Positions 7,101 to 24,299 of a stretch of DNA of 24,299 bases are shown here, piece after piece. The DNA is from a virus. The first letter of the stretch is position 1; the number at the start of each line of letters is the position of its first letter. A program made the translations under genes and the position numbers. Where the stretch lies: IMG/VR virus record IMGVR_UViG_3300013372_005524, positions 1 to 24,299 of that record; one strand, given 5' to 3'. The notes below the pieces were generated by a model that saw only the letters and a program-made list of their open reading frames with translations, had not been told where the DNA came from and made no database searches.

Positions 7101-8277
7101 AGTGGGCTCCGGTTTTTATTTGTCGACGGGTGGCTTTTTAAGTTCTGACAAACGTCTCCATGATGGTGATTATTATCAAGATTATAGTTATGAAGTAGAA
7201 ACAAAGATACCTTTTGCAACGTATTTTGATGTCCTCTATAAAATGGCACACGTGGCTGGTACAAAAGCTTTTGGTAGCGTGTCGGTTTTATCTACCATTG
7301 ACGCACAATCGTTTGTTTCGAGTGTACTTGGTTTAATAGACGATCCGACCGGCTTACCTGGGCGTCAATTTACAGGTGGGTGGACAGGCACCTATGTTGG
7401 GGATCTTCAGGCTTATACAGGCATCACGGGTGCATTTACAGGCAACCAATTCAGTGGTGCATATACTGTGCCATTTACAGGAGGCTATGGCACCACAATC
7501 TTTACAGGAGCTTTTAGCTCCGCATATTCCGGAATATATTCTCTTGCCTTCACAAAAGCCTACACAGTAGATTTTACAGGAGCATACTCAGGGCAATATG
7601 CAACCGCGTTCTCATCGTTATATACGAGAGCGTTTACGCACGGGTACACTTCTGCATACACAGGCACGTTTACAGGTGCTTTCACACGTACAACTTCGTA
7701 TATTGACCCGTATACGGAAAGATATACATCTGTGTATAACACGTTCACTGGTATTTACACCAAAAGCATATACACGGGATCCACGGGGTCATTTACGAAG
7801 AATATTTCCTTCTCTTCTGACATTTTCTCTGGAACATATAACGCTTATTTCGGCACGTTTACAACTGCTTACACCGGCGGATATACAGGCACCTATGTTA
7901 GCAATTTCACTAGTGTATTTACACAGCAATTTCAAGGAAGTTATCTTTCTTCGTACACAGGGTTATATACACACACGTATGCATCACCTTTCACAGCAGC
8001 ATACAGTCAAGCATATACCGCTGCATATGCAGGATTCACGTCCGCGTTCTCGTCTATATACACACATGCATATACCTCGCTTTATACGGGCGCTTTCACA
8101 GGAGTGTATGGTAATTTTACAGCCTCTTATACAAGCAATTACTCAGGTAATTACACGGGTATATACGCGGGGTCTTTCACCACAGCCTTTACAGTTGCTC
8201 AATATACGGGAACTTATGTTGGCCAATTTTATACAAGTAATTACTCAGGATACACAGGAACTTATGCTGGTGCATAA
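4120..8277 (+). CDS. 7: Baseplate wedge protein, gp7-like, with C-terminal YTG-repeat extension
   Basis: A 1385-residue protein in the gp7 slot between gp6 and gp8. Residues 1-180 match the C-terminal third of T4 gp7 in pattern: 'FPEFYESEGPRFIDFVQQYYSWMEQ', a helical stretch, then 'FAKDLYLEKGTAAGVELVLQGLF...VRYPREALF', which parallels T4 'FFESRSYDFYSTKGIEASYKFLFKVLYNEEVEI'. Residues about 190-1010 are beta-rich with shuffled modules, including two copies of an 80-residue module (residues about 414-494 and 604-687). Residues about 1025-1060 ('DGDYYQDYSYEVETKIP...MAHVAGTKAFGSV') resemble the end of the conserved domain. After residue 1083 the protein becomes a pure aromatic-x-Gly-x repeat up to the stop. 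T4 gp7 has no such tail. It overlaps gp6 by ATGA. In T4, gp7 anchors the gp8 and gp10 arms, so this tail would plausibly point to the baseplate edge. Confidence 0.8.
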   Translation: MKDLESLISPFIQSQFPEFYESEGPRFIDFVQQYYSWMEQQNQAVGAARSLFRIRDIDTTYEEFVVHFKEKYLLGLPLTSSANTRTLTKFAKDLYLEKGTAAGVELVLQGLFNVESEVRYPREALFKTSAGAWYTPVYLELSPAERTRDFVGKEVLGSQSQAKAFLESVVRRRVQGKYLDVAYLSNLRGNFETGDIITESANTILLNAPKVIGSLSSLTVTSGGAELTVGQLFDITSTNGKQGVARVASISNQTGKVVFIFESALESGGWGYSSTPEVLVSSKVLTVGNQLNANNLITQFENFEDITQTLSVITYNTATPNNSGFVVGSVLENYAANNTVVANAIVVAIAPSNTTTGTLTISPQTGNLTSVDTTFSLKGNTTTAVINNYTDTIITGNVFGSNTTSIVVSVNALTDVSNTNKTITSTNHQFSNNNLVRYTAKTGNTAIGGLSNNGLYFIANTDTSTFELANSYSGNAISITSGSSEEGHTFTFSSGYVGVGNIVGGVFISTPYANIVGVVSNTTASISNTSTGTGATFRIGQITDTESVFLTPDFLRMKNTANAVMHTVQLNGNNANTVEFSPARVLSFDTSGISTANISFNGSTDVSNTTDFITPSGGFSNLISNGQYVQYVTSTGNTAVTGLSNTSFYYIVQANTTAFQLSATYGGSAINLTSVSTSQAGHHVRPVAETATRGLGFPKFPSASMDSILLDCFRYEAVEIGSIADLVGINPGNDYNINPFVAVVEPYVVGYGYRDYVMLATVLTGAFVKGETVQQTFNTPATVLTVTGFSGTGANGAVTTTFNQSEYVYQLYANSAVRAAGFVAEAAVSAGAGTVKLRNVTGVFVATSNNSTIIQSLTSNATSNASAVQITTSTTTARAIIKEIQQQTFANSTPYTLLYLKRINLENTFEENATIVGRTTGSTATVLQIDLDQTSQQIGLNANIPTVVQTANGVATAMDVQSSGFGFIDQETVTLTSPGSNFEITAVVGLGKQGVGSGFYLSTGGFLSSDKRLHDGDYYQDYSYEVETKIPFATYFDVLYKMAHVAGTKAFGSVSVLSTIDAQSFVSSVLGLIDDPTGLPGRQFTGGWTGTYVGDLQAYTGITGAFTGNQFSGAYTVPFTGGYGTTIFTGAFSSAYSGIYSLAFTKAYTVDFTGAYSGQYATAFSSLYTRAFTHGYTSAYTGTFTGAFTRTTSYIDPYTERYTSVYNTFTGIYTKSIYTGSTGSFTKNISFSSDIFSGTYNAYFGTFTTAYTGGYTGTYVSNFTSVFTQQFQGSYLSSYTGLYTHTYASPFTAAYSQAYTAAYAGFTSAFSSIYTHAYTSLYTGAFTGVYGNFTASYTSNYSGNYTGIYAGSFTTAFTVAQYTGTYVGQFYTSNYSGYTGTYAGA
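5359..5600 (+). repeat. 80-residue shared module, copy 1 (in gp7-like protein)
   Basis: Encodes about residues 414-494. The landmarks are 'DVSNTNKTITS', 'NNNLVRYTAKTGNTAIGGL', 'LYFIANTDTSTFELA' and a closing 'EEGHTF'. The same order occurs again at 5929-6182 in this gene and in two downstream genes. This is the most diverged of the four copies. Confidence 0.75.
5929..6182 (+). repeat. 80-residue shared module, copy 2 (in gp7-like protein)
   Basis: Encodes about residues 604-687, with 'DVSNTTDFIT', 'ISNGQYVQYVTSTGNTAVTG', 'FYYIVQANTTAFQLSA' and 'SQAGHHVRP'. It is closest in wording to the copy in the 12-mer repeat fibre gene (18603-18852). Confidence 0.8.
7369..8274 (+). repeat. YTG tetrapeptide-repeat domain of the gp7-like protein
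   Basis: Codes for residues 1084-1385. An aromatic residue (Y, F, sometimes W) comes every fourth position, usually with Gly, Ser or another small residue two places later: FTGGWTGTYVG, then AYTGITGAFTG and 'YTSLYTGAFTGVYGNF'. A few places drop or add a residue. The DNA copies here are mostly diverged, which suggests an older array than those in the two downstream fibre-like genes. Confidence 0.9.
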
Positions 8278-8295
8278 ATATTAAAAAAAGCTAAA

Positions 8296-10098
8296 ATGTC
8301 TACACAAATCACTACCAATTATTTTAGACTGCACAACGTTAAGCAATTTCGTGAGTCTATTAACGAAACAGCCAATAGTGTATATTATGTTTTTGCTGGT
8401 AGGTCTTTGCCCTATTCAGCAGGTGATACAGAAGTGCAAGAAATTACAAACACAGAAGATTCGACGAGCTACAACACACAGGAAAACTTGGTGTTTGGTA
8501 AACGTGTCAGTGCCAATGATGTGTGTGTATCGACAGCTAGAATCAATTGGACTGCAAATACTGTCTATACTCCTTACCGTAATGATGTTGTTTTAGAAGG
8601 CACTTCTTACTATGTGAGCGTAAATGCTGCTTCCGTATATCACATTTTCAAATGTTTAGATAATAATTCGAATGCGGTTTCTACATCAAAGCCCGACGCG
8701 TCTCAAACTGCTCCAAACGACGAATTTTATAGTACAAGCGATGGATATGTTTGGAAATATATGTACTCGGTTGATTCGACTGTTTTTAATAAATTTGCCA
8801 CAATCAACTATATGCCCGTTGTAGCAAATGGACAAGTTGTTGCTAACGCATCGCCAGGATCCATAGACGTTATAACTGTTCCGTTTAGAGGCTCAAATTA
8901 TAACACGACATTGTCAAGCACTTTCATACCCACAGATATACGGGTTGGAGGGAATCCTCTTAAATACAACATAGCAAATACAGCTTCCTCCAACAATCTG
9001 TTTTACCAAGGTAGCTTCATTTACATAACAAAAGGGCCAGGGGTGGGTCAGGGGCGCAAAATCGTTGATTATGTCGTGGTTGGTAATACAAAAACGATTA
9101 CTTTAGATAAGGCTTTCGACACGGTGCCTACAACTGAGACGGAATATGAAATTACCCCTTCTGTATTGATACTGGGTGATGGTGATGATGCGGTGGCTCG
9201 AGCCATTGTCAACACATCAATTTCAAACTCAATATACCAAGTACAAATTATCAACCGAGGTCGTAATTACACGTATGCCACAGCAGAGGTGCAAGGTAAT
9301 ACAGGCGGCGTGTCGAATAGTGCTGTGCTCAATGTTGTAATGGGGCCCAAAGGTGGCCATGGCTCAGACCCCGAATATGAATTAGGAAGTACCGCTCTTG
9401 TTATTAGTAGTAAATTTTCAAACAATGAAATAGGCACAATACCAACAGAGAACGATTTCCGCACCATAGGCTTAATAAAAGATCCGTTGTATGCGAACGT
9501 GGGGCTGACTGTCAGCTCTATTAGTGGTTCGTTTTTAATTGGCGAAAATATCATACAAGCAAACACACTTGCAACGGGTACGGTAACAGAATTTGACGCT
9601 ATTTCCACTGTTGCTATTACTGCTGTGTCGGGGGTGTTTATTGCAGGCAAAACCATTACAGGAGTAACATCTAATTCAACAGCAAATGTTACATCTTTCA
9701 ATATAAACGGAAAATCAAAAGGGTTTGATACGTTTGATCAGCGCGCTCGGTTTGCATTCAGGCAGGTGTCGGGCACACATACACAAGATGAGTTTGTGTA
9801 TCAGACAGCCGCCAATGGGGCTTTCAGTGCAAACGGGTATTTTCACAGCCAAGAAGGCTCGGTTAATGTTAGTTCTGGCCTTTTTGAGGGAAATCTTTAT
9901 TTGACACATATTAAAGGCACCCTAAATACAGGTAATACGCTCGTTGGGAATACAAGTGGCGCTGTAGCGACTTTGTTATTTAAATATCCTCCTGATTTAA
10001 CAAAAGGATCAGGCGAAATAATTTACGTCGAAAATTTAAATTCTGTTACTCGTTCAAATAACCAATCAGAAACAGTAAAAATTATCCTAAAGTTTTAA
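8296..10098 (+). CDS. 8: Baseplate wedge subunit, gp8-like
   Basis: Wedge protein of the upper baseplate periphery, bound to gp7 and gp10 in T4. The N-terminal region follows the T4 gp8 order: 'KQFRESINETANSVYYVFAGRSLPYS' (T4: '...TIFITFGRSEPWS'), then 'VCVSTARINWTANTVYTPYRNDVVL', 'YHIFKCLDNN', and the diagnostic 'DGYVWKYMYSVD' near residue 150 (T4 'DGYVWEYLFEIP'). The last residues, 'GSGEIIYVENLNSVTRSNNQSETVKIILKF', match the T4 ending 'SGEMIYMENRPPI...EEINILFTF'. At 600 residues it is far longer than T4 gp8 (334); the extra length is a central beta-rich insertion (about residues 165-565) with modules such as 'GSFLIGENIIQANTLATGTV'. The ribosome binding site is weak (AAAAAAAGC). The gap to the gp7-like gene is 18 bases. 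Confidence 0.88.
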   Translation: MSTQITTNYFRLHNVKQFRESINETANSVYYVFAGRSLPYSAGDTEVQEITNTEDSTSYNTQENLVFGKRVSANDVCVSTARINWTANTVYTPYRNDVVLEGTSYYVSVNAASVYHIFKCLDNNSNAVSTSKPDASQTAPNDEFYSTSDGYVWKYMYSVDSTVFNKFATINYMPVVANGQVVANASPGSIDVITVPFRGSNYNTTLSSTFIPTDIRVGGNPLKYNIANTASSNNLFYQGSFIYITKGPGVGQGRKIVDYVVVGNTKTITLDKAFDTVPTTETEYEITPSVLILGDGDDAVARAIVNTSISNSIYQVQIINRGRNYTYATAEVQGNTGGVSNSAVLNVVMGPKGGHGSDPEYELGSTALVISSKFSNNEIGTIPTENDFRTIGLIKDPLYANVGLTVSSISGSFLIGENIIQANTLATGTVTEFDAISTVAITAVSGVFIAGKTITGVTSNSTANVTSFNINGKSKGFDTFDQRARFAFRQVSGTHTQDEFVYQTAANGAFSANGYFHSQEGSVNVSSGLFEGNLYLTHIKGTLNTGNTLVGNTSGAVATLLFKYPPDLTKGSGEIIYVENLNSVTRSNNQSETVKIILKF

Positions 10099-10107
10099 GA
10101 GAAAAAG

Positions 10108-13100: not shown

Positions 13101-14307
13101 CGATATGCGCGACTGTTTTGATTTTAGGCCTTATGGTAGCAACACTGCCACGCTTACAAGTAATGCAGCGCTGGCAACTATAAATCCCTCATTGACGTTT
13201 GCATTGAGTGGAGATGATCAGCTTTTCCCTCAACCTGATTCACTCGTTTCTTATGATGTAAATTATATCAATTCGCGCGTGGATATAGTGTGGGTTGGCA
13301 AGGATGGATCTTTCAATATTAATCAAGGAACTCCTGCTCTTTCAAACCCTGTACAGCCCAAGATTCCTCCGGAAGCAGTGGTTTTAGCAACATTAAACAT
13401 TCCTCCTTATCCTTCATTGCCGGCTGTTTATAATGAGATTACAAGCGCACATGCAGATCGAGGTTTGGGTAATGACCGGGGTGTTTTAAATAGAAGGCTG
13501 TCCAATTTTACAATATCATCGGTCCCTGTTTCTGTATACGATTCCCAACAACCTCGTCGCTTTACTATGGACGAAATTGGTAAATTGCAACGGCGAATTG
13601 AAGCACTCGAGTATGTTGGCTCATTAAACACCATTGAAGGATCTATAAAAGACAAGGTTATTGCAAGTAGCGTAACACCTTCACAGGAAAGATTTAAGCA
13701 TGGTTTTTTTGTTGATCCGTTTGACGATTATAATGGCGTCGACATTGCACATCGCGAGTTTGCGGCATCAATTGATCAGCAAAAAAGCGTACTCACACCG
13801 CCAGTGAAACAAGTAAATTTTGCAATTCAATTTAACAGGGAGCATACAGCGACCAATCAAGGAATTGTGAATGACACACTGCTGATGCTGCCTTACACAG
13901 AAGAGACATTAATTGATCAGTCTATCTTTAGTTCTCCGCTGGGAATTGATGGGATAAAAACGGGGTTTGTTGGTGATCCGAGCATTACACCTGTTTCTTT
14001 TGTGATAAAATCACGTGGTGAAGTAGCCATAACACGTCCTCGCGCCATGGCCGCACTTCCTGCTCCTGCTCCCGTATATGGCAGTCCAGGAGCTGCTCCC
14101 GTATATAACTCACCAGATCAAGGCAGCGGCGGTGATGGTGGCGGTGGCGGTGGTTGGGATGCACCAGCAGCGGCGCCCGACTCTGGAGGCTTTGCGCCAG
14201 ATTCTGGGCCATCTAGTGGTAGTGATAGTGGTGATGGCGGTGGCGGTGGCGGTGGTGATAGTGGCGGTGGTGATAGTGGCGGTGGTGGTGGTGGTGGTCC
14301 ACAGTAA
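10108..14307 (+). CDS. DUF4815-type tail/baseplate structural protein, N-terminal portion, Gly-rich tail
   Basis: Large virion protein of 1399 residues. The start ('SPYFDDFTVDKNYYKILFKPGVSVQTRELNQLQTLLQNQI', residues about 9-50) is the DUF4815 signature: a compact PG-x-x-x-QxRELN-x-LQ motif. The middle has several beta modules, including a T-x-F...GD-x-I-R-V type module at residues about 738-812. Near residues 1150-1180, 'RRFTMDEIGKLQRRIEALEY' resembles the conserved helix of cyanophage homologues. The homologues I recall continue into an Ig-like domain and an 'LAQTF' domain in the same chain; here the chain instead ends in a proline/alanine-rich linker and a Gly/Ser/Asp-rich tail (residues about 1316-1399), and the missing parts are found in the next two genes. 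The exact virion location is not known to me. It starts 9 bases after gp8, behind AAGAGAAAAAG. Confidence 0.8.
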   Translation: MPLENSLNQSPYFDDFTVDKNYYKILFKPGVSVQTRELNQLQTLLQNQIEQFGDHIFKAGTIVSGVNFSYLPLYNYVKLLDTQADGQSAIPSAYTGFFIKSDLDLTARIVNFEDGLESKSPDLKTIFVQYVSGSNPDTANNNVSYTEFAADQSLTIFSKDYPLFKVIVGNGGTGFSNTDTVVFSSALTIAGNTSTFEVGERVTQAGTNARAIVKSLDTAAVPGATVISIKPLVTDLQSSNALAWAFNAGNNIVGNVTLSTANVASIVGQGAQGFLTTDSLGIVQTISLSSSGNNYTILPHVTIQTSNNAAAVGSLDITPFNYKAVVTTANAAVNAVGTGYAFGVSKGVIYQKGFFLRVEPQVIVISKYTTAPDNLAVGFTSTEKIVNANEDSSLFDNAANTINYAAPGADRLLLTPTLKVLSLDAAAANSDFFALAEWKEGFPYKENRTTAYSTLGDEFARRTREAQGNFVVDPFRVVTKDKSTANLDFTQALIDPGLAYISGYRVQTSYNNYLDLARSRSVTALSNQSITINYGNFIRVKELAGLFNFKAGDVVNFYDTAKQFITSVVSTAGTIAPAGSSIGTARMRSIMLDSGDPGTPECVYRLYLFDISMSAGKSFRQIRSVWYDGGVHDGIADLVLEQDGTTGANVAVIKDTNTDVMLFKVGKRGVDSVSNVQYTYRTSTPSTLQITTAGTITIGPFGSGTVFPYSDGVLSSVLERDFIVMPIANTIAVANIAGSVVVTSGSASVTGTSTVFLTALTPGDFIRVANATHSTVGQVKSITSNTALTLSSNATTTVSVAANAAIFFPALYPIPLESRSGRTVTISGSGSTATIDLGIALTATVNAIATHSAKRNPAIPVSKTPVRDIFVKIHTSNNAANTIGPWGLGIPGVLRLKNVFSGSTTANTNITKYFSIDAGDDENAYRLATLVKNQGADVDISNSQFLLVQLDAFTTGGQEGFFVYNSYSVKDSVSLENQTTFINTLEIPETVTNKGQYFDMRDCFDFRPYGSNTATLTSNAALATINPSLTFALSGDDQLFPQPDSLVSYDVNYINSRVDIVWVGKDGSFNINQGTPALSNPVQPKIPPEAVVLATLNIPPYPSLPAVYNEITSAHADRGLGNDRGVLNRRLSNFTISSVPVSVYDSQQPRRFTMDEIGKLQRRIEALEYVGSLNTIEGSIKDKVIASSVTPSQERFKHGFFVDPFDDYNGVDIAHREFAASIDQQKSVLTPPVKQVNFAIQFNREHTATNQGIVNDTLLMLPYTEETLIDQSIFSSPLGIDGIKTGFVGDPSITPVSFVIKSRGEVAITRPRAMAALPAPAPVYGSPGAAPVYNSPDQGSGGDGGGGGGWDAPAAAPDSGGFAPDSGPSSGSDSGDGGGGGGGDSGGGDSGGGGGGGPQ
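14052..14304 (+). repeat. Low-complexity Gly/Ser/Asp-coding tract (GGT/GGC)
   Basis: Codes for the C-terminal tail of the DUF4815-type protein. A proline/alanine-rich stretch with two copies of a VYGSPG/VYNSPD-like unit is followed by runs of 5-7 glycines separated by DS, made of GGT and GGC codons. The purine/T-rich triplet run is prone to slippage, and its resemblance to 14788-14880 could allow deletion of the gene between them. Confidence 0.85.
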
Positions 14308-14332
14308 CAGCAAAATAACAAAAAGGTAGCGC

Positions 14333-14884
14333 ATGGTAACGTCTCAGCCCAAAATTGTTTTTATAGTAGAAGAACAGGTTTTTAGAATTAAGGCAGTAGG
14401 ACTAATGCCGCTCACATATCATAGTTTTTATGTTGAGCGTCAAAAAGTCAATTTTTCAAATTTAAAGCAGGTAGGTGGTTTAAGAAACACAACTCTTCAA
14501 ACTGACGCAAACGGGCAAATAGAGTTTGATTATTTTTATAACTCTGGTCTAACAGGTGATGAAACAACATTGGAGCAGGCACAGCAAGCAACAAATATGG
14601 TTGCTGGAATCAAAGAAGTTATTCTTGCTACCTCAACTAGTAGCACTCTTCCTCTAAATTATGCGCAAACAATGCTTTCCCATTTTCGTACACATATTGG
14701 CATTGAAGTTGTTTTGCCTCCACCATCTGATTATGCACAAATAGATGGTGGGTATTATGATCCCCAAAGCACTGTTTTATCTGATTCGGGTGGAGGTATG
14801 GACGGTGGCAGGGATGGTGATGGTGGCGGCGGTGGGGGCGGTGGGGGCGGTGGCGGTATTGGCAGCGGTAGCGGATATCAATAA
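14333..14884 (+). CDS. Structural protein resembling the middle (Ig-like) domain of cyanophage DUF4815 proteins
   Basis: A protein of 183 residues. The core 'VFRIKAVGLMPLTYHSFYVERQKV...VGGLRNTTLQTDANGQIEFDYFY' follows the pattern 'GL.P.T..Y.F.DG.....L.TDA.G.I...F' that I recall from the middle domain of long DUF4815-type tail proteins. Residues about 150-183 are a tail of aspartate, glycine and serine with a run of 12 glycines, much like that of the preceding gene. A good ribosome binding site (AAGGTAG, 14323-14329) sits 3 bases before the ATG; 25 bases separate it from the upstream stop. It is probably a virion component working with its neighbours. The domain assignment is by pattern only. 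Confidence 0.6.
   Translation: MVTSQPKIVFIVEEQVFRIKAVGLMPLTYHSFYVERQKVNFSNLKQVGGLRNTTLQTDANGQIEFDYFYNSGLTGDETTLEQAQQATNMVAGIKEVILATSTSSTLPLNYAQTMLSHFRTHIGIEVVLPPPSDYAQIDGGYYDPQSTVLSDSGGGMDGGRDGDGGGGGGGGGGGGIGSGSGYQ
14788..14880 (+). repeat. Second Gly-rich coding tract
   Basis: GGT/GGC/GGG codons giving GGGMDGGRDGDG followed by a run of 12 glycines and then GIGSGSGYQ. It repeats the composition of 14127-14304 at the end of the preceding gene. Confidence 0.85.
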
Positions 14885-14921
14885 CAGAAAAATGTAATGG
14901 CAACAATTTTTAGGAAAAAAA

Positions 14922-16961: not shown

Positions 16962-17191
16962 AAGTTGACCAGAATAAATATGAAAAAACCAATGATGTAA
17001 ATTTTATTCGTGATATCGATAGTATGGCTGTTCTAAATATAGACACAGTAGGGTACCAGCGATTTGAGCAAGAAAGAGCAAGGATACTTCAGCTGCAACG
17101 CGTCACAAATGATGTTGCTATTTTACATAAAGATATAAACGATATCAAGCAGCTGCTTCAACAATTAATTGATGGAAAATTAAATGGCTAA
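16958..17191 (+). CDS. Small coiled-coil protein of unknown function
   Basis: A 77-residue protein. The first half, 'NFIRDIDSMAVLNIDTVGYQRFEQERARI', resembles small proteins I recall beside tail genes of marine T4-like phages ('RD...AL.N.D...Y'). The second half (residues about 40-72, 'QLQRVTNDVAILHKDINDIKQLLQQLI') has heptad-spaced hydrophobics and should form a coiled coil, so it may oligomerise or act as a clamp or chaperone for the neighbouring fibre proteins. It overlaps its upstream neighbour by 4 bases (ATGA) and its downstream neighbour by 8 bases, so it is probably translated with them. No known function can be assigned. Confidence 0.75.
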   Translation: MKVDQNKYEKTNDVNFIRDIDSMAVLNIDTVGYQRFEQERARILQLQRVTNDVAILHKDINDIKQLLQQLIDGKLNG

Positions 17192-19388
17192 AAATATAGC
17201 AAACGTTGTTATTGCAACAGATTCTTTTGCAACGTGGGTTAGTGTTACAAATCAAACAGCGGACGCATTCACAAAAAATGCGCTTACCGCTAACGCGGCT
17301 CCTGGAGGGGCAGTCGTAACTGGCAATTCTCATTTGTTTGGTATTTTTGCGGCAAACACAATTGTAGCTAATAACTCATTACGCGGCGGTAATGTATCCC
17401 ACTCAAATCTTCTAACAATATCATCAAATACTAATTTTACGGGCGAGGTAGTAAATTCAGCAGCAAACGTTTACATAGGGGCTGCCAACGTTTACATAAA
17501 CACGACTAGTTTCGTCGTGTTGGGTGTTTCCACTCTAACAGGTAATGCGACCTTCAAAATAAACGCAACAAATACAAACATCCAGCTTCTTGGCAATGCA
17601 ACAGCAAGCAATCTGACGTTTTCAGCAAATGCTGTAAGCATTGTGGGAAACGTGTCAATCACCAATGCAACAAGTGTGGCCAACACTGTTGCTGTTACGG
17701 GAGCTGCAACTCTATCAAACACAATAGCCGTTACCGGGAATGCAACTTTCTCCAATGTAATGCTTGTTACTGGAGCCGCAACTCTATCAAACACAATAGC
17801 CGTTATCGGGAATGCAACCTTCTCCAATACAATGGCTGTTACTGGAGCCGCAACTTTCTCCAATACGATTGCTGTTACAAATAATGCAACGTTCTCCAAT
17901 ACAATGGCTGTTACTGGAGCCGCAACTTTCTCCAACACGATTGCTGTTACAAATAATGCAACGTTCTCCAATACAATGGCTGTTACTGGAGCCGCAACTT
18001 TCTCCAATACGATTGCTGTTACAGGAAATGCAACTTTCTCTAACACATTAGGTGTTACTGGAGCCGCAACTTTCTCGAACACAGTGGCTGTTACGAATAA
18101 TGCAACCTTTTCTAACACAATAGCTGTTACTGGAGCTGCAAATTTAGCAAGCACGTTGGGTGTTGTTGGCGCTGCAAATTTAGCAAGCACGTTGGGTGTT
18201 ACTGGAGCTGCAAATCTTGCTAGCACATTGGGTGTTACTGGAGCTGCAAATCTTGCTAGCACATTGGGTGTTGTTGGAGCGGCAACATTATCTAACACAA
18301 TAGCTGTTACAGGTAATGCAACTTTCTCCAATACAATAGCTGTTACAGGTAATGCAACTTTCTCTAACACAATAGCTGTTACAGGAGCTGCAAATCTTGC
18401 TAGCACATTAGGTGTTATTGGAGCCGCAACATTATCAAACACAATAGCTGTTACAGGAGCCGCAAATTTAGCAAGCACATTAGGTGTTGTTGGAGCGGCA
18501 ACATTATCTAACACAATAGCCGTTACAGGAGCCGCAAATCTTGCTAGTACATTGGGTGTGCTTGGCAATGTGTGGGTCACATCGACAATAGCCACCTTTA
18601 ATAGTAATACTGGTGTAGCTAATACAACCGATTTCATAACATCGACGTCAGCTCATGGGTTTGCAAATGGTGAGTATGTACAGTATATCGTATCAGCAGG
18701 AAATACAGCTGTTACGGGGCTTGTTAATGCTAGTTTTTATTATGTTGTTGGAGCAAACGCGACCGCCTTCCAATTAGCATCAACCGTGGATGGTGCAAAC
18801 ATAAATATAACTGCTGGTCTTACGCAAACAGGACACTCATTACAACCTATACGCATTGCATTGTCTACGAGTGGTAAGATTTTTGCTAATACAATAGCTG
18901 TTACAGGAGCCGCAACTCTTTCTAGCACATTAGGCGTTGGCGGTAATGTGACGTTCAGTGGGACACATCATCTTATTGCTGGAAATGTTACATTCGATAC
19001 TGATTTGTTATTTCTGGATGCAACCAACAACAGAATAGGGTTAAAGAATAATTCTCCTTCCTCGGTAGATCTCGTCACAGTTGGTGGCAACGTTGTTTTC
19101 AACGCTGCAAACACTACAGGGTTGCGGTTTATTACAGCTACAGCAGGCGTTAATTCTTCTATTGTTCTAATGGCAAATACGTCGAATAGCAGATTGACGT
19201 TTGCAACCTATGACAACTCAAACACAACTGTAAACGATGGTGGTTTCTTGTTTAATTTTGTTAACTCAACAGCGACAACAGCAGGTGTATTGCTTACCTC
19301 AAACACTTTTCATTATAAAGGAGCTAATGTGACCCACGCTGGTAATTTTGGCATTTATAACGTAAGTGGCACTCGAGTAGGTCCATGA
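17184..19388 (+). CDS. Fibre-like structural protein built of 12-residue repeats
   Basis: A 734-residue protein. The N-terminus 'NVVIATDSFATWVSVTNQTADAFTKNALTANAAPGGAVVTGN' and 'HLFGIFAANTIVANNSLRGGNVSHSN' are of a kind I recall at the start of fibre-like virion proteins of marine phages, probably the attachment end. Residues about 172-471 are some 25 tandem 12-mers of the type TGAATFSNTIAV. The array is interrupted by the shared 80-residue module (residues about 474-556), after which the repeat pattern resumes briefly ('FANTIAVTGAATLSSTLGV'). The C-terminal ~140 residues ('NNRIGLKNNSPSSVDLVTVGGNVVF...') are unique and probably form the tip. No C-terminal intramolecular chaperone (peptidase S74) is seen. 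It starts inside the preceding gene, after GATGGAAAA. The repeats suggest a beta-solenoid or trimeric beta shaft. Confidence 0.82.
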   Translation: MAKNIANVVIATDSFATWVSVTNQTADAFTKNALTANAAPGGAVVTGNSHLFGIFAANTIVANNSLRGGNVSHSNLLTISSNTNFTGEVVNSAANVYIGAANVYINTTSFVVLGVSTLTGNATFKINATNTNIQLLGNATASNLTFSANAVSIVGNVSITNATSVANTVAVTGAATLSNTIAVTGNATFSNVMLVTGAATLSNTIAVIGNATFSNTMAVTGAATFSNTIAVTNNATFSNTMAVTGAATFSNTIAVTNNATFSNTMAVTGAATFSNTIAVTGNATFSNTLGVTGAATFSNTVAVTNNATFSNTIAVTGAANLASTLGVVGAANLASTLGVTGAANLASTLGVTGAANLASTLGVVGAATLSNTIAVTGNATFSNTIAVTGNATFSNTIAVTGAANLASTLGVIGAATLSNTIAVTGAANLASTLGVVGAATLSNTIAVTGAANLASTLGVLGNVWVTSTIATFNSNTGVANTTDFITSTSAHGFANGEYVQYIVSAGNTAVTGLVNASFYYVVGANATAFQLASTVDGANINITAGLTQTGHSLQPIRIALSTSGKIFANTIAVTGAATLSSTLGVGGNVTFSGTHHLIAGNVTFDTDLLFLDATNNRIGLKNNSPSSVDLVTVGGNVVFNAANTTGLRFITATAGVNSSIVLMANTSNSRLTFATYDNSNTTVNDGGFLFNFVNSTATTAGVLLTSNTFHYKGANVTHAGNFGIYNVSGTRVGP
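17697..18596 (+). repeat. Array of about 25 tandem 36-bp (12-residue) units
   Basis: Three unit types alternate: TGAATFSNTIAV, TGNATFSNTMAV or TNNATFSNTMAV, and TGAANLASTLGV. The first half mixes the first two types as 24-residue pairs. Units 13-16 are four consecutive ANLAS types, and the second half alternates NLAS with ATLSN. Runs of almost identical DNA show recent local duplication and gene conversion. Degenerate units lie upstream from about 17530. Confidence 0.93.
18603..18852 (+). repeat. 80-residue shared module, copy 3 (in 12-mer fibre protein)
   Basis: Encodes about residues 474-556: 'GVANTTDFITSTSAHGFANG', 'EYVQYIVSAGNTAVTGL', 'FYYVVGANATAFQLAS' and 'TQTGHSLQPI'. It lies between repeat units of the array, as if inserted there. 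Confidence 0.8.
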
Positions 19389-19389
19389 A

Positions 19390-22300
19390 ATGGGGAGACC
19401 TCTTCGCGCGCGGTATTTAACTGCTGGGTTCAATTCTTTAAGTGGTGTTTCAAACACGACGGAGTATATAACTACCACTTCGCCTCATGTTATTTCAAAT
19501 GGTGATGTTGTTACGTATGTCACAGCAACAGGTAACACTGCTATACCAGGCCTTGCAAACGCTTCAAGCTACTATGCTGTAAATGCCAATACAACCGCTC
19601 TACAGTTATCATTGACTCTGGGCGGCGCAGCAATAAACATAACAGCTGGTACATCTGAAACCGGCCACAGTTTGTATAGAGGCGCCATTGATGGTGTCCA
19701 GGAAATGACGGATACGGAAATTAATGATCTAATAGCACCATTAATTCTTTCTTACATAGTTAACAATCCCAATACATCATATGGCACATCTTTACGATTA
19801 ACACAAGGCGCCTATGGAGTCAGCAGGGGTACAGCTGTACGTTCCGGAACACAAGCTGTCGGCACACATCCAGCCACGTTGTCGTCTCTTGCTTCTTACA
19901 CATTATATCAAACAGAATTACAGCAATCCCTCACAACACTGAATGTGGTCCGACCAGTTCAATACACTATTAGTGGTCAGGAAACAAAAATATCAGAAAT
20001 GTCTGATAGTACCATTCTATCTGACTTCATTCCTTCTGTCGTGCAAACCATGATAACTGGTGGGCAAGGTGCATACTATCTTGGCCTCACTGCTTCTGGA
20101 TCGCCGGCCGGCACCTGGTCATCATATGCAACAATGGATGACACCTATTATAACAGTAGTGGTGTTTTTACGACAGATCAATATACGTTGTGGCAAAAAG
20201 CATCGGGCACAACCGCTGGCATAATACGACCTTTGAAATATGTTGTTGATGGCACCTCTGTTCAACTGAAAGAGATGACCAATGCAGATATAGAGACGTT
20301 GGCTGCTGCTATAGGTGAATATATTAGAACAACGTCAATAGGTCAGTACGCTTTTGCACAGAATGCCCCTGGTGCAGGCACATGGAGCTCTCGTGGAGCT
20401 TTTATTACACAAGCCAACAATTTAGTTGACACAGCATATGTTGGTAATTATGCTGACACGTATACAGGCGTTTATGCAGGCACATATGTCGGGGCATTTA
20501 GCGCTCCTTATGCAGGCACATATGTCGGGGCATTTAGCGCTCCTTATGCAGGCACATATGTCGGGGCATTTAGCGCTCCTTATGCTGGTACATATGTCGG
20601 AGCGTTTACAAGCATATATGCCGGTACATATGTTGGAGCGTTTACAAGCATATATGCTGGTGGTTATATAGGGTATTTTACTGGCTCTTATACAGGTTTA
20701 TATTCACGTAATTGGACCGGTAGTTATACTGGATCCTATTCCCGCGACTGGACGGGCAGCTATACTGGACTCTATTCCCGTAATTGGACAGGCGATTATT
20801 CGAGACCCTATGTAGGATCTTATGATGGTAGTTTTGCAGGTACATATGTTGGATCCTATGCAGGCACTTACGAGCATCCAACAGGATATGCAAGTAATTG
20901 GTCAAGACCCTATGTTGGATCAAGAGACTCAGGAACATTTCAGCAAATTGTTAGCAAATATTTTTCCAGAGGCCCCTATGTTCGCAGTTTCACCCACTCA
21001 TTTACTGGCGCCTATTCAAGAGAACGTGGTGTAGTATATTCTGGTGAGCGTGGTAAATATTACAACGTCAGTTATGCGGGCGTCTACACACAAAACGTGG
21101 GGACGTTAGTGTACACGTCGACGTGGACGCGTCATTATTCTGGTAGTTATTCACGAATTTTTACCGGCTCCTATACAAAAGAATGGACAGGCCCCCATTC
21201 TTATTCAGGCTCACGTACTAAAAATTTATCAAGTTACACCGGGGCAACTTTTACACCATCCTTTCTTGGTCCCGGATATTACAGTCCGGGCGATGGTCAA
21301 TATGGCATTAACTGGACGCGTATTCGCGATGTGGCTTATACGGGAACATATGTCGGATCGTATGCGGGAACGTATCAACGTACAATATATTATGGAGGTG
21401 TATTGACCGCCCACCCGGAATATTATACAGGCCTCTCCAACGACCGCACTTTTTATGGTGGCAAGCAGCTCACGTCTGTCTTTAGCGGTTCTTACTTCAC
21501 GGGAAGCTATGTAACGTCAACAGAAAAATCTTATACACAAGGATATACGGGGCTGTATACAGGAGGCCCCTACACTGGTGCTAACCAGCTTTGGACAACA
21601 ACTGCGCTGAGCGGGTATGGAGGCAACACAACAACATATACCTGGTTTGGCGGAAACAGACTTAACAATCAGACCGCAATTTTAAAATATGTTGTCGGTC
21701 TGCCGTTAACTGCTGCTCAACAGCTTTTCATAGATTTAGCACGTACTTTTCAATATGTTGGGGTTGAGGGCCCACTTGCCCCTCCTGGCCGACGATATGG
21801 TAACATTAAACAAGGTCAAGCCAATGGTGGAGATATTACCACTTCGGATTCCACTATATTTGGTGCCATATCTGTCTATGACAGAAACTCAGGCTTTTTC
21901 TCTACAGGTGAATTGTTTCGGCTCGATTTGTTTCTCGAATACGTTAGAGCGCAATCGCAGGGGTCTATAGACACGCTCGTCGGTGCGGGGCTGCTCACTG
22001 CCACGGTTACAGCATCAACATCACAATGGACAGCTACGTATACAATAGATTCAGGAACGTATGCCGGCAGCTACTCAGGTGAAAAGGTTTTCACTGGTAA
22101 TTGGTCTCGTGAAAAAGCAGTTTCCTTTACAGGCGATGCTCCTGGTTATGCACAAACCTATCAATTGGGTTATACAGCCAATTTATGGACTGGATCGCGT
22201 ACAAAATCTTGGCTTCGCTATTATGCTGGCACATACACAGCAGTTTATACAGGAATATACGGCGCTTACACAAGTGCTGGTGGGTTATATTACACACCTA

Positions 22301-22920
22301 TTACAGCGCTGGGGCAGGGGTCTTATGCCACAGCCTACATTGGGTATTATGTGGGTGTAATCAGTTACAACGTATTAAAGCAATATGCTAACTTTTGGTC
22401 ACGCACATATGCTGGTTCATATGTGGGGTACTATACAAAAGAGTATTCACGCCCATATTCAGGATCATATTCACGCAATTGGACAGGTAGTTATTCAGGC
22501 ACTTATTCACGCGATTGGACAGGCATCTATGCAGGAACATATGTCGGATCGTATGCAGGAAATTTTGCAGGAACATATGTCGGATCGTATGCAGGGGCCT
22601 ATGCAGGAACATATGTCGGATCGTATGCAGGCGCTTATCTAGGTGCCTTTAATCAAACTTTCTCTGGCAACTACACAGGAATATATTCACGTAATTTCAC
22701 AGGTAGTTATACAGGGATATATTCGCGCAATTTCACAGGTAGTTATACAGGGATATATTCGCGCAATTTCACAGGTAGTTATACAGGGATATATTCGCGC
22801 AATTTCACAGGTAGTTATACAGGAGCTTACACACACATATGGACGGGTAGCTATTCTGGTTTGACTGTTATAAATACAACAGCATCCACACAATTTACGT
22901 TGTGGGTAAGAACAGCATAA
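19390..22920 (+). CDS. Large fibre-like protein with EM-type modules and two YTG-repeat blocks
   Basis: A 1176-residue protein. Residues about 12-98 are the shared 80-residue module. Three related modules follow, starting near residues 103, 201 and 293, each with an EM(S/T)(D/N)xxI motif, a helix-like stretch, a G-x-Y segment and usually GTWSS. The rest is YTG repeat: residues about 350-731 and 880-1157. The two blocks are separated by a non-repetitive part (about 732-879, with 'PPGRRYGNIKQGQANGG' and 'GELFRLDLFLEYVRA') of unknown fold. Some repeat units read YSRNWTGS or YSRDWTGS, adding Arg and Trp. It begins one base after the previous stop, with only a weak site (GAGTAGG, 19375-19381). I do not recognise a named family. 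Location in the tail cluster and repeat design suggest an extended virion protein, possibly a host-contacting fibre. Confidence 0.82.
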   Translation: MGRPLRARYLTAGFNSLSGVSNTTEYITTTSPHVISNGDVVTYVTATGNTAIPGLANASSYYAVNANTTALQLSLTLGGAAINITAGTSETGHSLYRGAIDGVQEMTDTEINDLIAPLILSYIVNNPNTSYGTSLRLTQGAYGVSRGTAVRSGTQAVGTHPATLSSLASYTLYQTELQQSLTTLNVVRPVQYTISGQETKISEMSDSTILSDFIPSVVQTMITGGQGAYYLGLTASGSPAGTWSSYATMDDTYYNSSGVFTTDQYTLWQKASGTTAGIIRPLKYVVDGTSVQLKEMTNADIETLAAAIGEYIRTTSIGQYAFAQNAPGAGTWSSRGAFITQANNLVDTAYVGNYADTYTGVYAGTYVGAFSAPYAGTYVGAFSAPYAGTYVGAFSAPYAGTYVGAFTSIYAGTYVGAFTSIYAGGYIGYFTGSYTGLYSRNWTGSYTGSYSRDWTGSYTGLYSRNWTGDYSRPYVGSYDGSFAGTYVGSYAGTYEHPTGYASNWSRPYVGSRDSGTFQQIVSKYFSRGPYVRSFTHSFTGAYSRERGVVYSGERGKYYNVSYAGVYTQNVGTLVYTSTWTRHYSGSYSRIFTGSYTKEWTGPHSYSGSRTKNLSSYTGATFTPSFLGPGYYSPGDGQYGINWTRIRDVAYTGTYVGSYAGTYQRTIYYGGVLTAHPEYYTGLSNDRTFYGGKQLTSVFSGSYFTGSYVTSTEKSYTQGYTGLYTGGPYTGANQLWTTTALSGYGGNTTTYTWFGGNRLNNQTAILKYVVGLPLTAAQQLFIDLARTFQYVGVEGPLAPPGRRYGNIKQGQANGGDITTSDSTIFGAISVYDRNSGFFSTGELFRLDLFLEYVRAQSQGSIDTLVGAGLLTATVTASTSQWTATYTIDSGTYAGSYSGEKVFTGNWSREKAVSFTGDAPGYAQTYQLGYTANLWTGSRTKSWLRYYAGTYTAVYTGIYGAYTSAGGLYYTPITALGQGSYATAYIGYYVGVISYNVLKQYANFWSRTYAGSYVGYYTKEYSRPYSGSYSRNWTGSYSGTYSRDWTGIYAGTYVGSYAGNFAGTYVGSYAGAYAGTYVGSYAGAYLGAFNQTFSGNYTGIYSRNFTGSYTGIYSRNFTGSYTGIYSRNFTGSYTGIYSRNFTGSYTGAYTHIWTGSYSGLTVINTTASTQFTLWVRTA
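19423..19680 (+). repeat. 80-residue shared module, copy 4 (N-terminus of YTG fibre protein)
   Basis: Encodes about residues 12-97: 'SGVSNTTEYITTTSPHVISN', 'DVVTYVTATGNTAIPGLANA', 'SYYAVNANTTALQLSL' and 'SETGHSLYRG'. Here the module is N-terminal, while in the other two proteins it is internal. Confidence 0.8.
19696..20436 (+). repeat. Three EM-type modules in tandem
   Basis: Modules begin at about 19696, 19990 and 20266 (294 and 276 bases apart). Each encodes E-M-[ST]-[DN]-x-x-I, a predicted helix of about 20 residues and then a G-x-Y segment. The second and third carry GTWSS, and a 'VVRPVQY' or 'IIRPLKY' strand precedes them. Three further copies lie in the next gene. Confidence 0.75.
20437..21582 (+). 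repeat. YTG tetrapeptide-repeat block 1
   Basis: Residues about 350-731. Its first part, 20473-20652, consists of 36-bp units: three perfect copies of the unit encoding YAGTYVGAFSAP (20473-20508, 20509-20544, 20545-20580), then two YAGTYVGAFTSI units. Later units take the form YTGSYSRDWTGS. From about 20890 the array is interrupted by irregular stretches but keeps returning to the four-residue rhythm. Confidence 0.9.
22027..22860 (+). repeat. YTG tetrapeptide-repeat block 2
   Basis: Residues about 880-1157, less regular at about 22280-22380. It includes three 36-bp copies around 22528-22642 (YAGTYVGSYAGx) and a run at 22672-22815: one diverged unit followed by three perfect 36-bp units (22708-22743, 22744-22779, 22780-22815) encoding YTGIYSRNFTGS. 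The perfect copies point to recent expansion. Confidence 0.9.
22869..22876 (+). promoter_or_regulatory. Possible T4-type late promoter (TATAAATA)
   Basis: An exact match to the T4 late promoter consensus TATAAATA lies 57 bases upstream of the last gene's ATG, inside the final codons of the preceding gene. In an AT-rich 24-kb window about one match would be expected by chance, and there is a second one inside the hub gene. The position is right for an extra late start of the final fibre-like gene, but there is no other support. Confidence 0.3.
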
Positions 22921-22933
22921 GACAAACGCCCCC

Positions 22934-24299
22934 ATGCCTTCAATTGCACCTTTAAAACCTCTTCATTCAATTGTTTCCTTGCAAACAATGTCGAATAACG
23001 ACATGGATGATTATATGTCATTCATTCTCGCATCTGATTTTGCTGCGACAGTAGGCGTTGGTTCATTGGGTGTTAATTCTTTAGCAAATGGCACAAGCAT
23101 AGGCACGTGGGTTGACACATATCGAACAGGTGCTTTGGGCGATTACCCTGTTGATAATACAGCAATAACAACAACAAGCACCACGATATATCAAAACATA
23201 TCCAATGGTGCTCTGACAGGATCACCAGTAAGACCTCTTGGCTGGAATACTAATATTTTATCACTTGATATTAGTGGTGCACAAGAGATGACCGATGCAG
23301 ACATAGACGCAACCATTATAGCAAAAACAGCTGCGTATATTGTCAATGGTGGTGTCGGGTCTTATGTTCTTCAACCGTCTGCACCAGCCACGGGCACATG
23401 GACTTCGAAAGGCACATTAACAAATCAATTAAATTCTGAAGGCACAACTAATGTAACCACCTTGTGGCAAAAAACAAACGACACAGTTTTAGACAACAGT
23501 TATGTAGTGCGGCCGGTCAAATTTGATAATGGCGTACGTGAAATGACGGATGCAGAAATTAAAACTCTGACGTTTAGACTTCGTAATTACATTGTTAACC
23601 AGGGTGTTGGAAAATATGCGTTGTCCATTAATTCACCATCATCAGGAGGCACTTGGGTCACAGCAGGGTCGGGTTTTGTCGATACGAGATATTCTGTAAG
23701 ACCGGACACCTATACCCGAATTCGCGATCAATCCTTTACAGGAGGGTTTGCTACTACTTACACGGGATCGTACACAGGTCAGTTTACTGGTAGTTTTCTA
23801 AATGACTTTACAGCAACATATACGGGATCTTATGTTGGGGGATATACACAAGATTACACAGGTAGTTATGTTAACTTTGGTGGTTATGCGGGGTTTTTTA
23901 CCGGCGTATATGCTGGAACATATAACCAAACATTTACCGGCCTTTTTACGGGGCAATATTCTGGCCATTGGTCAGGAGAGTTTTCTGGTAATTACATAGG
24001 AACATTTACAGGCGCATTTACCGGTAGTTATGTTAACTTTGGTGGTTATGCGGGGTTTTTTACCGGCGTATATGCTGGAACATACAATCAGGCATTCACC
24101 GGTGCATTCTCAAGCATATACAATCAGGCATTTACAGGGATATATGCAGGTACATATAACCAAGCATTCACCGGCGCATTCTCAAGCATATACAATCAGG
24201 CATTTACTGGGATATATGCAGGAACATATAACCAAGCATTTACCGGCGCATTCTCAAGCATATACAATCAGGCATTTACTGGGATATATGCCGGCACAT
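22934..24299 (+). CDS. Fibre-like protein with EM-type modules and YTG repeats, paralogue of the preceding gene (3' end outside window)
   Basis: An open frame runs from ATG 22934 to the window edge with no stop: 455 full codons. An in-frame stop at 22907-22909 limits the start, and ATG 22934 is the first start codon after it; no clear ribosome binding site precedes it. Three EM-type modules start near 22982 ('LQTMSNNDMDDYM', diverged), 23282 ('AQEMTDADIDATI') and 23540 ('REMTDAEIKTLTF'); each ends in GTW or GGTWV. From 23735 it becomes YTG repeat. The design matches the preceding gene minus its N-terminal 80-residue module, so the two are probably tandem paralogues. The exact end and any C-terminal tip are outside the window. 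Function unknown; likely a virion fibre. Confidence 0.8.
   Translation, partial: MPSIAPLKPLHSIVSLQTMSNNDMDDYMSFILASDFAATVGVGSLGVNSLANGTSIGTWVDTYRTGALGDYPVDNTAITTTSTTIYQNISNGALTGSPVRPLGWNTNILSLDISGAQEMTDADIDATIIAKTAAYIVNGGVGSYVLQPSAPATGTWTSKGTLTNQLNSEGTTNVTTLWQKTNDTVLDNSYVVRPVKFDNGVREMTDAEIKTLTFRLRNYIVNQGVGKYALSINSPSSGGTWVTAGSGFVDTRYSVRPDTYTRIRDQSFTGGFATTYTGSYTGQFTGSFLNDFTATYTGSYVGGYTQDYTGSYVNFGGYAGFFTGVYAGTYNQTFTGLFTGQYSGHWSGEFSGNYIGTFTGAFTGSYVNFGGYAGFFTGVYAGTYNQAFTGAFSSIYNQAFTGIYAGTYNQAFTGAFSSIYNQAFTGIYAGTYNQAFTGAFSSIYNQAFTGIYAGT
22982..23700 (+). repeat. Three EM-type modules in the last gene
   Basis: Modules start near 22982, 23282 and 23540. The second and third have the full EMTDA[DE]I motif, followed by 'AAYIVNGGVGSYVL' or 'RNYIVNQGVGKYAL' and a GTW/GGTW strand. 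The first has M-S-N-N-D-M and 'IGTWVDTY'. They correspond to 19696-20436 in the preceding gene. Confidence 0.75.
23735..24299 (+). repeat. YTG tetrapeptide-repeat block of the last gene (continues beyond window)
   Basis: Starts with FTGGFATTYTGSYTG. It contains a direct duplication (23861-23922 and 24023-24084) and ends in three 72-bp units: 24083-24154, 24155-24226 and 24227-24298. Each unit encodes six tetrads, YNQA FTGA FSSI YNQA FTGI YAGT. The window ends one base into the next unit. Confidence 0.92.
23861..24084 (+). repeat. 62-bp perfect direct repeat, 162 bp apart
   Basis: Bases 23861-23922 are identical to 24023-24084 (encoding GSYVNFGGYAGFFTGVYAGT). The 162-base offset is 54 codons, so the frame is kept. 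This unit breaks the four-residue rhythm with a Y-x-N-F-G-G-Y step, so both the rhythm break and the perfect identity mark a recent in-frame duplication. Confidence 0.93.

Follow-up and report, generated by a model that had tools for sequence, protein, structure and literature searches.

A four-residue aromatic-glycine repeat shared by fibre-like and baseplate wedge proteins of a T4-like viral contig, with mirror-ordered variation between array halves

Among the closest known counterparts of the fibre proteins examined here is a hypothetical protein of 3347 amino acids (aa) from Phage C48C1 (Kyanoviridae; OQ984149.1), which consists largely of four-residue (tetrad) repeats. It was the single match when 50,697 phage records were searched by tblastn with fibA, a fibre-like gene of the IMG/VR virus record IMGVR_UViG_3300013372_005524, and Phage C48C1 was also the sole named record matched by the queries fibA, the N-terminus of the adjoining gene fibB, and L005 (L-numbers label the viral loci compared with the window). 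The window is the entire IMG/VR record of 24,299 bases, and all coordinates are positions within it. Homologues of gp25, gp6, gp7 and gp8 occur in this order, followed by large fibre-region genes, and this gene order, together with the profile matches, marks the window as part of a T4-like tail module. Three genes carry the repeat, namely gp7, fibA and fibB, the last of which starts at 22934 and, since the window is the complete record, is cut off by the contig end (Table 1). We consider it rather probable that the arrays are long arms of phage fibres, inserted in the hairpin of a protein module and running out and back antiparallel; such a long hairpin would apparently be an undescribed way of building a virus fibre.

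The C48C1 protein resembles the window fibres in its N-terminal modules, tetrads and C-terminal cap, and differs from them in an Arg-rich 12-residue version of the repeat and in several inserted non-repeat segments (roughly 140-275 residues each in its giant fibre gene, L004:19404-29447). By sequence, fibA has modules, array and cap, while fibB has modules and array, with its end lying beyond the contig. The gp7 gene, situated between gp6 and gp8, belongs to the T4 gp7-type wedge subunits by sequence (PHROG 17744 baseplate wedge subunit, E 3.6e-154, best stretch residues 3-779) and by gene order, but differs from them in bearing a 300-residue tetrad tail. The Tenebrio antifreeze protein, a 12-residue beta-solenoid, shares a 12-residue super-period with fibA and fibB of the window, whereas the arrays contain almost no Cys, show no 12-residue insertions or deletions (indels; 0 of 14) and change length in mirror order. 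Gly-zipper_YMGG (PF13441) exceeded its cut-off in the L051 array alone among nine other proteins scanned (49.3 bits, cut-off 28.9); it covers a short stretch, did not come up when five window proteins were scanned, and is read as a composition match.

The tetrad repeat and its distribution

The initial annotation had reported an aromatic-x-Gly-x rhythm in four blocks of three tail genes, and this was borne out when aromatic pairs four residues apart were compared with 2000 residue shuffles per block. All four blocks lay beyond the shuffle maxima: 57 pairs in the gp7 tail (shuffles mean 17.7, max 27), 57 in fibA block 1 (mean 18.6, max 33), 49 in fibA block 2 (mean 15.2, max 25) and 43 in fibB (mean 12.8, max 21). 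The block coordinates given there were correct to within a few residues, and its claim that a single repeat type occurs in a wedge protein of the baseplate as well as in two fibre-like proteins is likewise supported. The third tetrad position is Gly in 24 of 55 cases for the gp7 tail; for the end arms of fibA the counts are 25 of 35 and 26 of 36, and for fibB 27 of 41. The reported grouping by three tetrads (12 residues) stands for fibA and fibB, in which residue identity at lag 12 is 0.31, 0.41 and 0.41 and 36-base tandem DNA repeats are also present, but not for the gp7 tail, which shows no 12-residue period (identity 0.24 at lag 4, 0.23 at lag 8 and 0.18 at lag 12). The gp7 tail uses every synonymous codon of Gly, Thr and Ser, and its DNA, compared at a lag of 36 bases, reaches an identity of only 0.34; these mixed codons and low DNA repetition indicate that the pattern there is kept at the protein level, with no recent DNA repeat. 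Shifted frames of up to 228 aa are open beneath the arrays at 7598-8284, 20426-20671 and 22061-22642, probably as a by-product of biased codons.

The arrays have a low-complexity Tyr/Gly/Thr/Ser/Asn composition with tetrad runs in strict phase of up to 215 tetrads. Indels were scored in 79 of 96 homologous array pairs, the rest being too long or outside the identity band, and comprised 14 distinct events, of which 11 were multiples of four, 14 even and none a multiple of twelve. Judged by these sequences, the tetrad is the evolving unit of the arrays. This speaks against the fixed 12-residue coil of the initial annotation, which had suggested, as one possibility, a thin beta-solenoid with stacked aromatic ladders, taken here as monomeric. 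That model draws support from the 12-residue super-period of fibA, fibB and C48C1 residues 290-870, the last with identities of 0.43, 0.41 and 0.41 at lags 12, 24 and 36; set against it are the indel sizes, though an equal-faced solenoid could bear single tetrads, and the tandem units of 1, 2 and 7 tetrads that also occur across the family. At odd lags the C48C1 identity falls to 0.02-0.05, as would be expected if the strand is extended and its two faces differ.

The initial annotation had not recognised the repeat as a characterised domain, and the family libraries searched agree with this. No Pfam or PHROG family describing the arrays was found among the window proteins scanned, and sequence searches of the PDB with profile A1, fibA and the gp7 tail gave 0 matches at E 0.1. 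Pfam Hexapep, which would point to a left-handed beta-helix of hexapeptides, reached E 0.068 and 13.3 bits on the window proteins, below its cut-off of 27, and the array period is four rather than that of a hexapeptide. In the literature on phage tail fibres, solenoids, hairpins, C48C1 and cyanophage repeats, as far as mostly non-subscription coverage extends, no account of this repeat was found.

Carriers are numerous among uncultured viral contigs. The fibA query recovered 42 loci, with an array detected in 39, and the fibB query 23 loci, with an array in 22; the tetrad DNA pattern gave at least 120 stretches, adding further carriers. A script identified 187 array-bearing open reading frames (ORFs) in the viral loci, a set that was not deduplicated and from which ORFs of odd composition and those with under 60 array residues were dropped. 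These comprise 153 members of the fibre family, recognised by a C-terminal cap or by two or more EMTDxEI-like motifs, and 34 others (among them gp7 relatives, simple repeats and truncated fibres). Paired neighbouring array-bearing genes recur among the relatives, and array lengths range from 57 to about 2,500 residues, the longest being interrupted. The pattern scan of bacterial and archaeal genomes returned at least 119 stretches, and the 110 ORF rows examined by eye were short simple repeats or unrelated Gly-rich proteins. No relatives of the gp7 tail alone were found among 15 pattern stretches. A different kind of protein on another viral contig (L212:3086-4843) has a Ser/Thr-rich tetrad array with Cys/His clusters between its parts.

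Mirror order within the arrays

The mirror centre of window fibA falls at 0.502 of residues 341-1160, such that residue i faces residue 1505-i, and 0.53 of its aromatics are matched in the mirror versus 0.36 in shuffles (reached by 0 of 40). Arg and Lys gave no clear signal across the fibA arms over the registers, with one of four facing. Thirteen longer arrays were assessed with bounds set by hand and 40 shuffles each, and eight beat all 40: window fibA, fibA and fibB of both L051 and L309, fibB of L207, and the gp7 insertions of L325 and L331. Matched fractions reached 0.90 in the 1112-residue L051 fibB (0.44 in shuffles), 0.81 in L325 (0.52) and 0.70 in L331 (0.48); facing-residue correlations in eight long arrays showed no single peak.

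Reflecting the aromatics about a fitted centre matched at least 0.80 of them in 23 of 44 compact arrays, and the score was reached by at most one of 100 spacing shuffles in 28 of 44. Among 40 arrays no longer than 300 residues (lengths 51 to 276), 25 have a loose break motif at 0.45-0.55 of their length; 14 of these 25 also match elsewhere, and the count was made without a chance control. Six-residue steps were then compared across the centre in 31 distinct arrays, none longer than 300 residues, with the centre fitted on aromatics and steps within 12 residues of it set aside; 116 steps face exactly and 11 do not. The steps were divided into two classes (AKx, PKx and PAx versus TSx, TGx and TAx), and all 54 of the classed pairs among 58 facing step pairs are of opposite type, compared with 50 in the best of 20,000 label shuffles. 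Step orders vary (AK-TS-AK-TS, AK-AK-TS-TS, TS-AK, PK-PK-TG, PA-PA-TA), and the classed steps are mirror-complementary throughout. Phe or Trp faces Phe or Trp at register +4 in 62 cases, compared with a permuted mean of 42.5 and a maximum of 57 (0 of 1000 permutations), and is depleted at register 0 (34 versus 48.0). Of 263 related pairs that differ in length, 104 show exactly the same change in both halves.

The main rival explanation of these mirror facts is a tandem duplication of half an array, by which equal halves and mid-position breaks would be due to history and not to pairing. It accounts for the equal halves, and the order of steps is mostly alike in the two (KK 23, TT 23, KT 3, RR 2, unclassed 1). 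It is opposed by the order of length changes. Among ten indel signatures (distinct, with at least two gaps and of equal sizes in both halves) eight follow mirror order, none direct order and two neither. The single clean pair with exactly two equal indels (L014 and L029) has a mirror error of 0 and a direct error of 62. Three arrays (L041, L196 and L226) have an odd number of classed steps per arm, a condition under which only one of the two rules can hold, and they fit the mirror and break direct order. A fairer test of the halves favoured the mirror in 22 of 41 arrays and direct order in six, with 13 ties; the Phe/Trp correlation peaks at 0.59 in mirror registers and 0.43 in direct registers, and window fibA is clearly better in mirror (45 matches versus 29 for the best direct repeat). 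We judge duplication of this kind to be unlikely.

Several observations weigh against the out-and-back hairpin, some of them in favour of duplication. By aromatic positions in 51 arrays, direct order fits better in 22, the mirror in 16 and 13 tie; L051 fibB fits direct order better (0.97 versus 0.90), L325 and L331 tie, and non-aromatic identity peaks at the direct register (0.357). The two arms may share ancestry. Five of the 13 long arrays have no significant mirror (gp7 insertions L333, L338 and L340, L054 fibA and the window gp7 tail). For the gp7 tail the score was reached by 29 of 40 shuffles of the whole tail, and in a local search, in which 16 successive aromatics per side face about residue 1215.5, by 66 of 500. 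The central position of the mirror centre in 36 of 44 compact arrays is largely bias, as 551 of 880 shuffles behave likewise. The exact facing of steps is not independent of a centre fitted on the same aromatics, whereas the step types are independent of it. In four of the 58 facing pairs a step is unclassed or of SRN type (in L270, PAN faces SRN), and four SRN steps of L226 are unpaired. Both the step classes and the +4 register, one of eight tried, were chosen after looking at the data; the VTD step of L031 was assigned manually to the T class, and without it 53 of 53 pairs are opposite. Related arrays are not independent of one another, nor are indel signatures within one lineage.

Placement of the arrays in fibre and wedge proteins

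Where the array sits in the fibre proteins was assessed with AlphaFold and with a hidden Markov model (HMM) of the module-2 segment, built from 28 distinct sequences. In fibB the predicted local distance difference test score (pLDDT) is mostly 70-95 per ten-residue block up to residue 250, covering the N-terminal modules, of which module 2 ends in a predicted strand pair (155-165 and 172-182). Applied to the caps alone of 65 family proteins, the HMM gave a median of 7.8 bits versus 0.1 for shuffled caps, with more than 10 bits in 15 versus one. In the printed alignments the flank before the array corresponds to the start of the model and the cap to its later part. The fibre array thus appears to interrupt a beta-hairpin of the final N-terminal module, with both ends sharing one base, and the fibA cap GLTVINTTASTQFTLWVRTA is read as the closing strand of that module. 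Joining the flanks counts against this placement in that it brought no better score (median 7.8 joined, 11.0 for the N-terminal part alone and 7.0-8.6 with shuffled caps or array pieces), so that the insertion reading rests on the cap.

Structure prediction of the arrays themselves gave no confident structure, a further point against the hairpin that comes from constructs (fibB and the C-terminal 177 residues of fibA) that each held one arm, so that neither could form it. Residues 256-455 of fibB, the array, fall below 50, with pLDDT 30-48 across the arm, and five models of the fibA segment have mean pLDDT of 61, 54, 46, 34 and 28. The solenoid suggested in the initial annotation finds a partial echo here: the fibA-arm model is loosely solenoid-like, with short strands about every four residues, and among the VIA matches listed for it, those to beta-helical chains reach Z 11.7. 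This model is of low confidence (pLDDT 28-61), its five versions disagree, and most high Z values come with a root-mean-square deviation (rmsd) of about 11, a few matches having rmsd 3-4 (3p4g, Z 10.6, rmsd 4.1; 6n2b, Z 8.6, rmsd 3.0). With Foldseek, neither model had a PDB match at E 0.001 or better, nor did the second model have one in BFVD. A linear solenoid would not be expected to show indels in mirror order or facing steps of opposite type; the two ends of the array seem to meet in a single hairpin, and the symmetry observed is that of a chain running out and back. We consider a monomeric solenoid quite unlikely. The low pLDDT over the fibB arm would also suit disordered, sticky Tyr/Gly tethers of the stickers-and-spacers kind, gluing fibres, baseplate or host surface, as would the low-complexity composition and the extreme variation in array length. 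Such tethers would need neither the strict phase over up to 215 tetrads nor whole-tetrad indels (11 of 14), even indels (14 of 14) and mirror covariation, and we regard them as very unlikely.

Phage fibres are usually trimers, and the arrays could instead form a shaft of three parallel chains, a triple-stranded beta-helix like that of T4 gp5, with the cap as a distal trimer clamp. The hydrophobic-x-Gly spacing resembles the octad of the T4 gp5 needle, and one relative bears a C-terminal GP38 adhesin. From a parallel shaft one would predict neither indels in mirror order nor facing steps of opposite type inside a single chain, and the cap scores as the closing strand of the base module, which makes this arrangement improbable. 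A trimer of hairpins is compatible with the out-and-back hairpin, and three hairpins could form the trimeric beta shaft that the initial annotation gave as its alternative.

In the hairpin that we favour, the last of the three N-terminal modules of a fibre protein would contain a beta-hairpin whose strands are separated by the array as a very large insertion, with the short C-terminal cap supplying the second strand. The chain would leave the base as an extended strand with aromatics and Gly on one side and Thr, Ser and Asn on the other, turn at a middle motif or domain, return antiparallel and close at the base. Facing inserts of opposite type and equal length changes in both arms would keep the register, and copies of the fibre would probably associate further, perhaps as trimers. 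Extended strands rise about 0.33 nm per residue, and at this value an arm of 555 residues would be near 180 nm long if straight. A more specific proposal, which we put forward tentatively as quite possible, is that the arrays are single-chain, self-complementary antiparallel ribbons of up to about 555 residues per arm, undescribed in the sources searched, that have grown by mirror-paired tetrad steps from a small hairpin and are mobile between fibres and wedge. In such ribbons inserts of opposite type would co-vary across the arms much like base pairs.

The simplest reading of the sequences is that the arms hold receptor-facing parts away from the baseplate. Arrays of both C48C1 and window fibA are interrupted by non-repeat segments, and the fibA segment at 21592-22044 may be a displayed tip; six such segments (five of C48C1 and that of fibA) gave no Pfam match at E 0.01. 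The gp38 tail-fibre adhesin domain (PF05268) is shared by one relative (L052:7097-9952; 42.7 bits, cut-off 25), in which it follows about 590 residues of interrupted tetrads and whose PHROG match is annotated as tail fibre, host specificity; the scanned window proteins differ in having no gp38 match. The L052 array lies upstream of the domain with no module hairpin seen around it. The array is Lys/Gln/Glu-rich and in the same reading frame as the gp38-type adhesin. Variable segments in array middles, and the adhesin of this relative, would be the parts that the arms hold off the baseplate.

Insertion into gp7 was followed in 78 ORFs with a gp7 N-terminus, drawn from the best 80 of 96 loci together with L311, 15 of which were cut off by contig ends. 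An internal array occurs in 13 of the 78, at one site (start residue 378-394) and in five sequence groups distinguished by eye. The internal-site array is not present in window gp7, and a C-terminal array like that of window gp7 was found in none of the 63 relatives whose ORFs reach a stop codon. The 13 internal arrays and the tail in the window indicate that the array entered gp7 at two places. In array-less relatives the flanks of the internal site are close in sequence, and another domain is sometimes inserted there, from which we infer that an inserted element needs neighbouring ends. Arrays in gp7 are not tied to those in fibres: one contig (L048 and L051) has arrays in its two fibre genes and lacks one in gp7, another (L337 and L054) has both kinds. 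The same repeat at two sites would give an arm-bearing wedge that may extend or brace the fibres; gp7 arrays may be extra arms, or may brace fibre arms through like repeats. The earlier suggestion that the proteins pack through like repeats is supported in part: repeats seem to pack against like repeats, mainly within one chain.

If the hairpin reading is true, a low-complexity protein that prediction failed to resolve here would become readable from sequence through mirror covariation, and a compact member of about 330 residues, such as L041 (330 aa, with an array of 57 residues), would be of suitable size for testing the mirror rule. Phages would have a simple means of altering the length, tip and attachment of their fibres with no need of a new fold, and baseplate wedge proteins would be seen becoming arm-bearing. 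Very long protein ribbons with almost no cysteine would also be on offer as materials.

Gene map and neighbouring repeats

Table 1 Features of the window related to the tetrad arrays
Feature	Position	Strand	Basis
gp6 homologue	2336-4123		phrog_219
gp7-like baseplate wedge protein, 1385 aa, tetrad array as C-terminal tail	4120..8277	+	PHROG 17744 and gene order
gp7 tetrad array, residues 1084-1385; irregular centre ~1193-1242	7369..8274	+	
gp8 homologue	8296-10098		Pfam Gp8, 39.1 bits, cut-off 25
fibA, fibre-like protein, 1176 aa	19390..22920	+	
fibA N-terminal modules (EMTDxEI ... GTW ... LWQKT)	19390..20424	+	sequence; alignment A1 of related fibB family; AlphaFold-confident in fibB
fibA GNTAI-type domain, ~residues 14-96, inside N-terminal modules		+	sequence
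fibA putative outgoing regular arm, ~residues 346-500	20425..20889	+	mirror fit
fibA middle: irregular repeats and non-repeat segment 21592-22044	20890..22401	+	
fibA putative returning regular arm, ~residues 1005-1158	22402..22863	+	mirror 45 matches versus best direct repeat 29
fibA C-terminal cap GLTVINTTASTQFTLWVRTA	22858..22917	+	module-2 HMM
fibB N-terminal part, three modules (residues 1-261)	22934..23716	+	AlphaFold; alignment A1
fibB putative outgoing arm, cut off by contig end	23717..24298	+	

A second recurring domain (N..VxY.x..GNTA[IV].GLxN...YY...T.FQL) was recognised by eye in gp7 (4120-8277, ~residues 405-490 and 590-685), in a 734-aa fibre-like gene (17184-19388) and at the fibA N-terminus (19429-19677), and, like the tetrad array, it seems from these sites to move among tail genes. 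In the 734-aa protein another 12-residue unit (NTIAVTGNATFS type) recurs about 24 times, encoded by 36-base tandem DNA repeats. Low-complexity tails rich in Gly, Ser and Asp end two successive genes (14078-14307 and 14800-14884).

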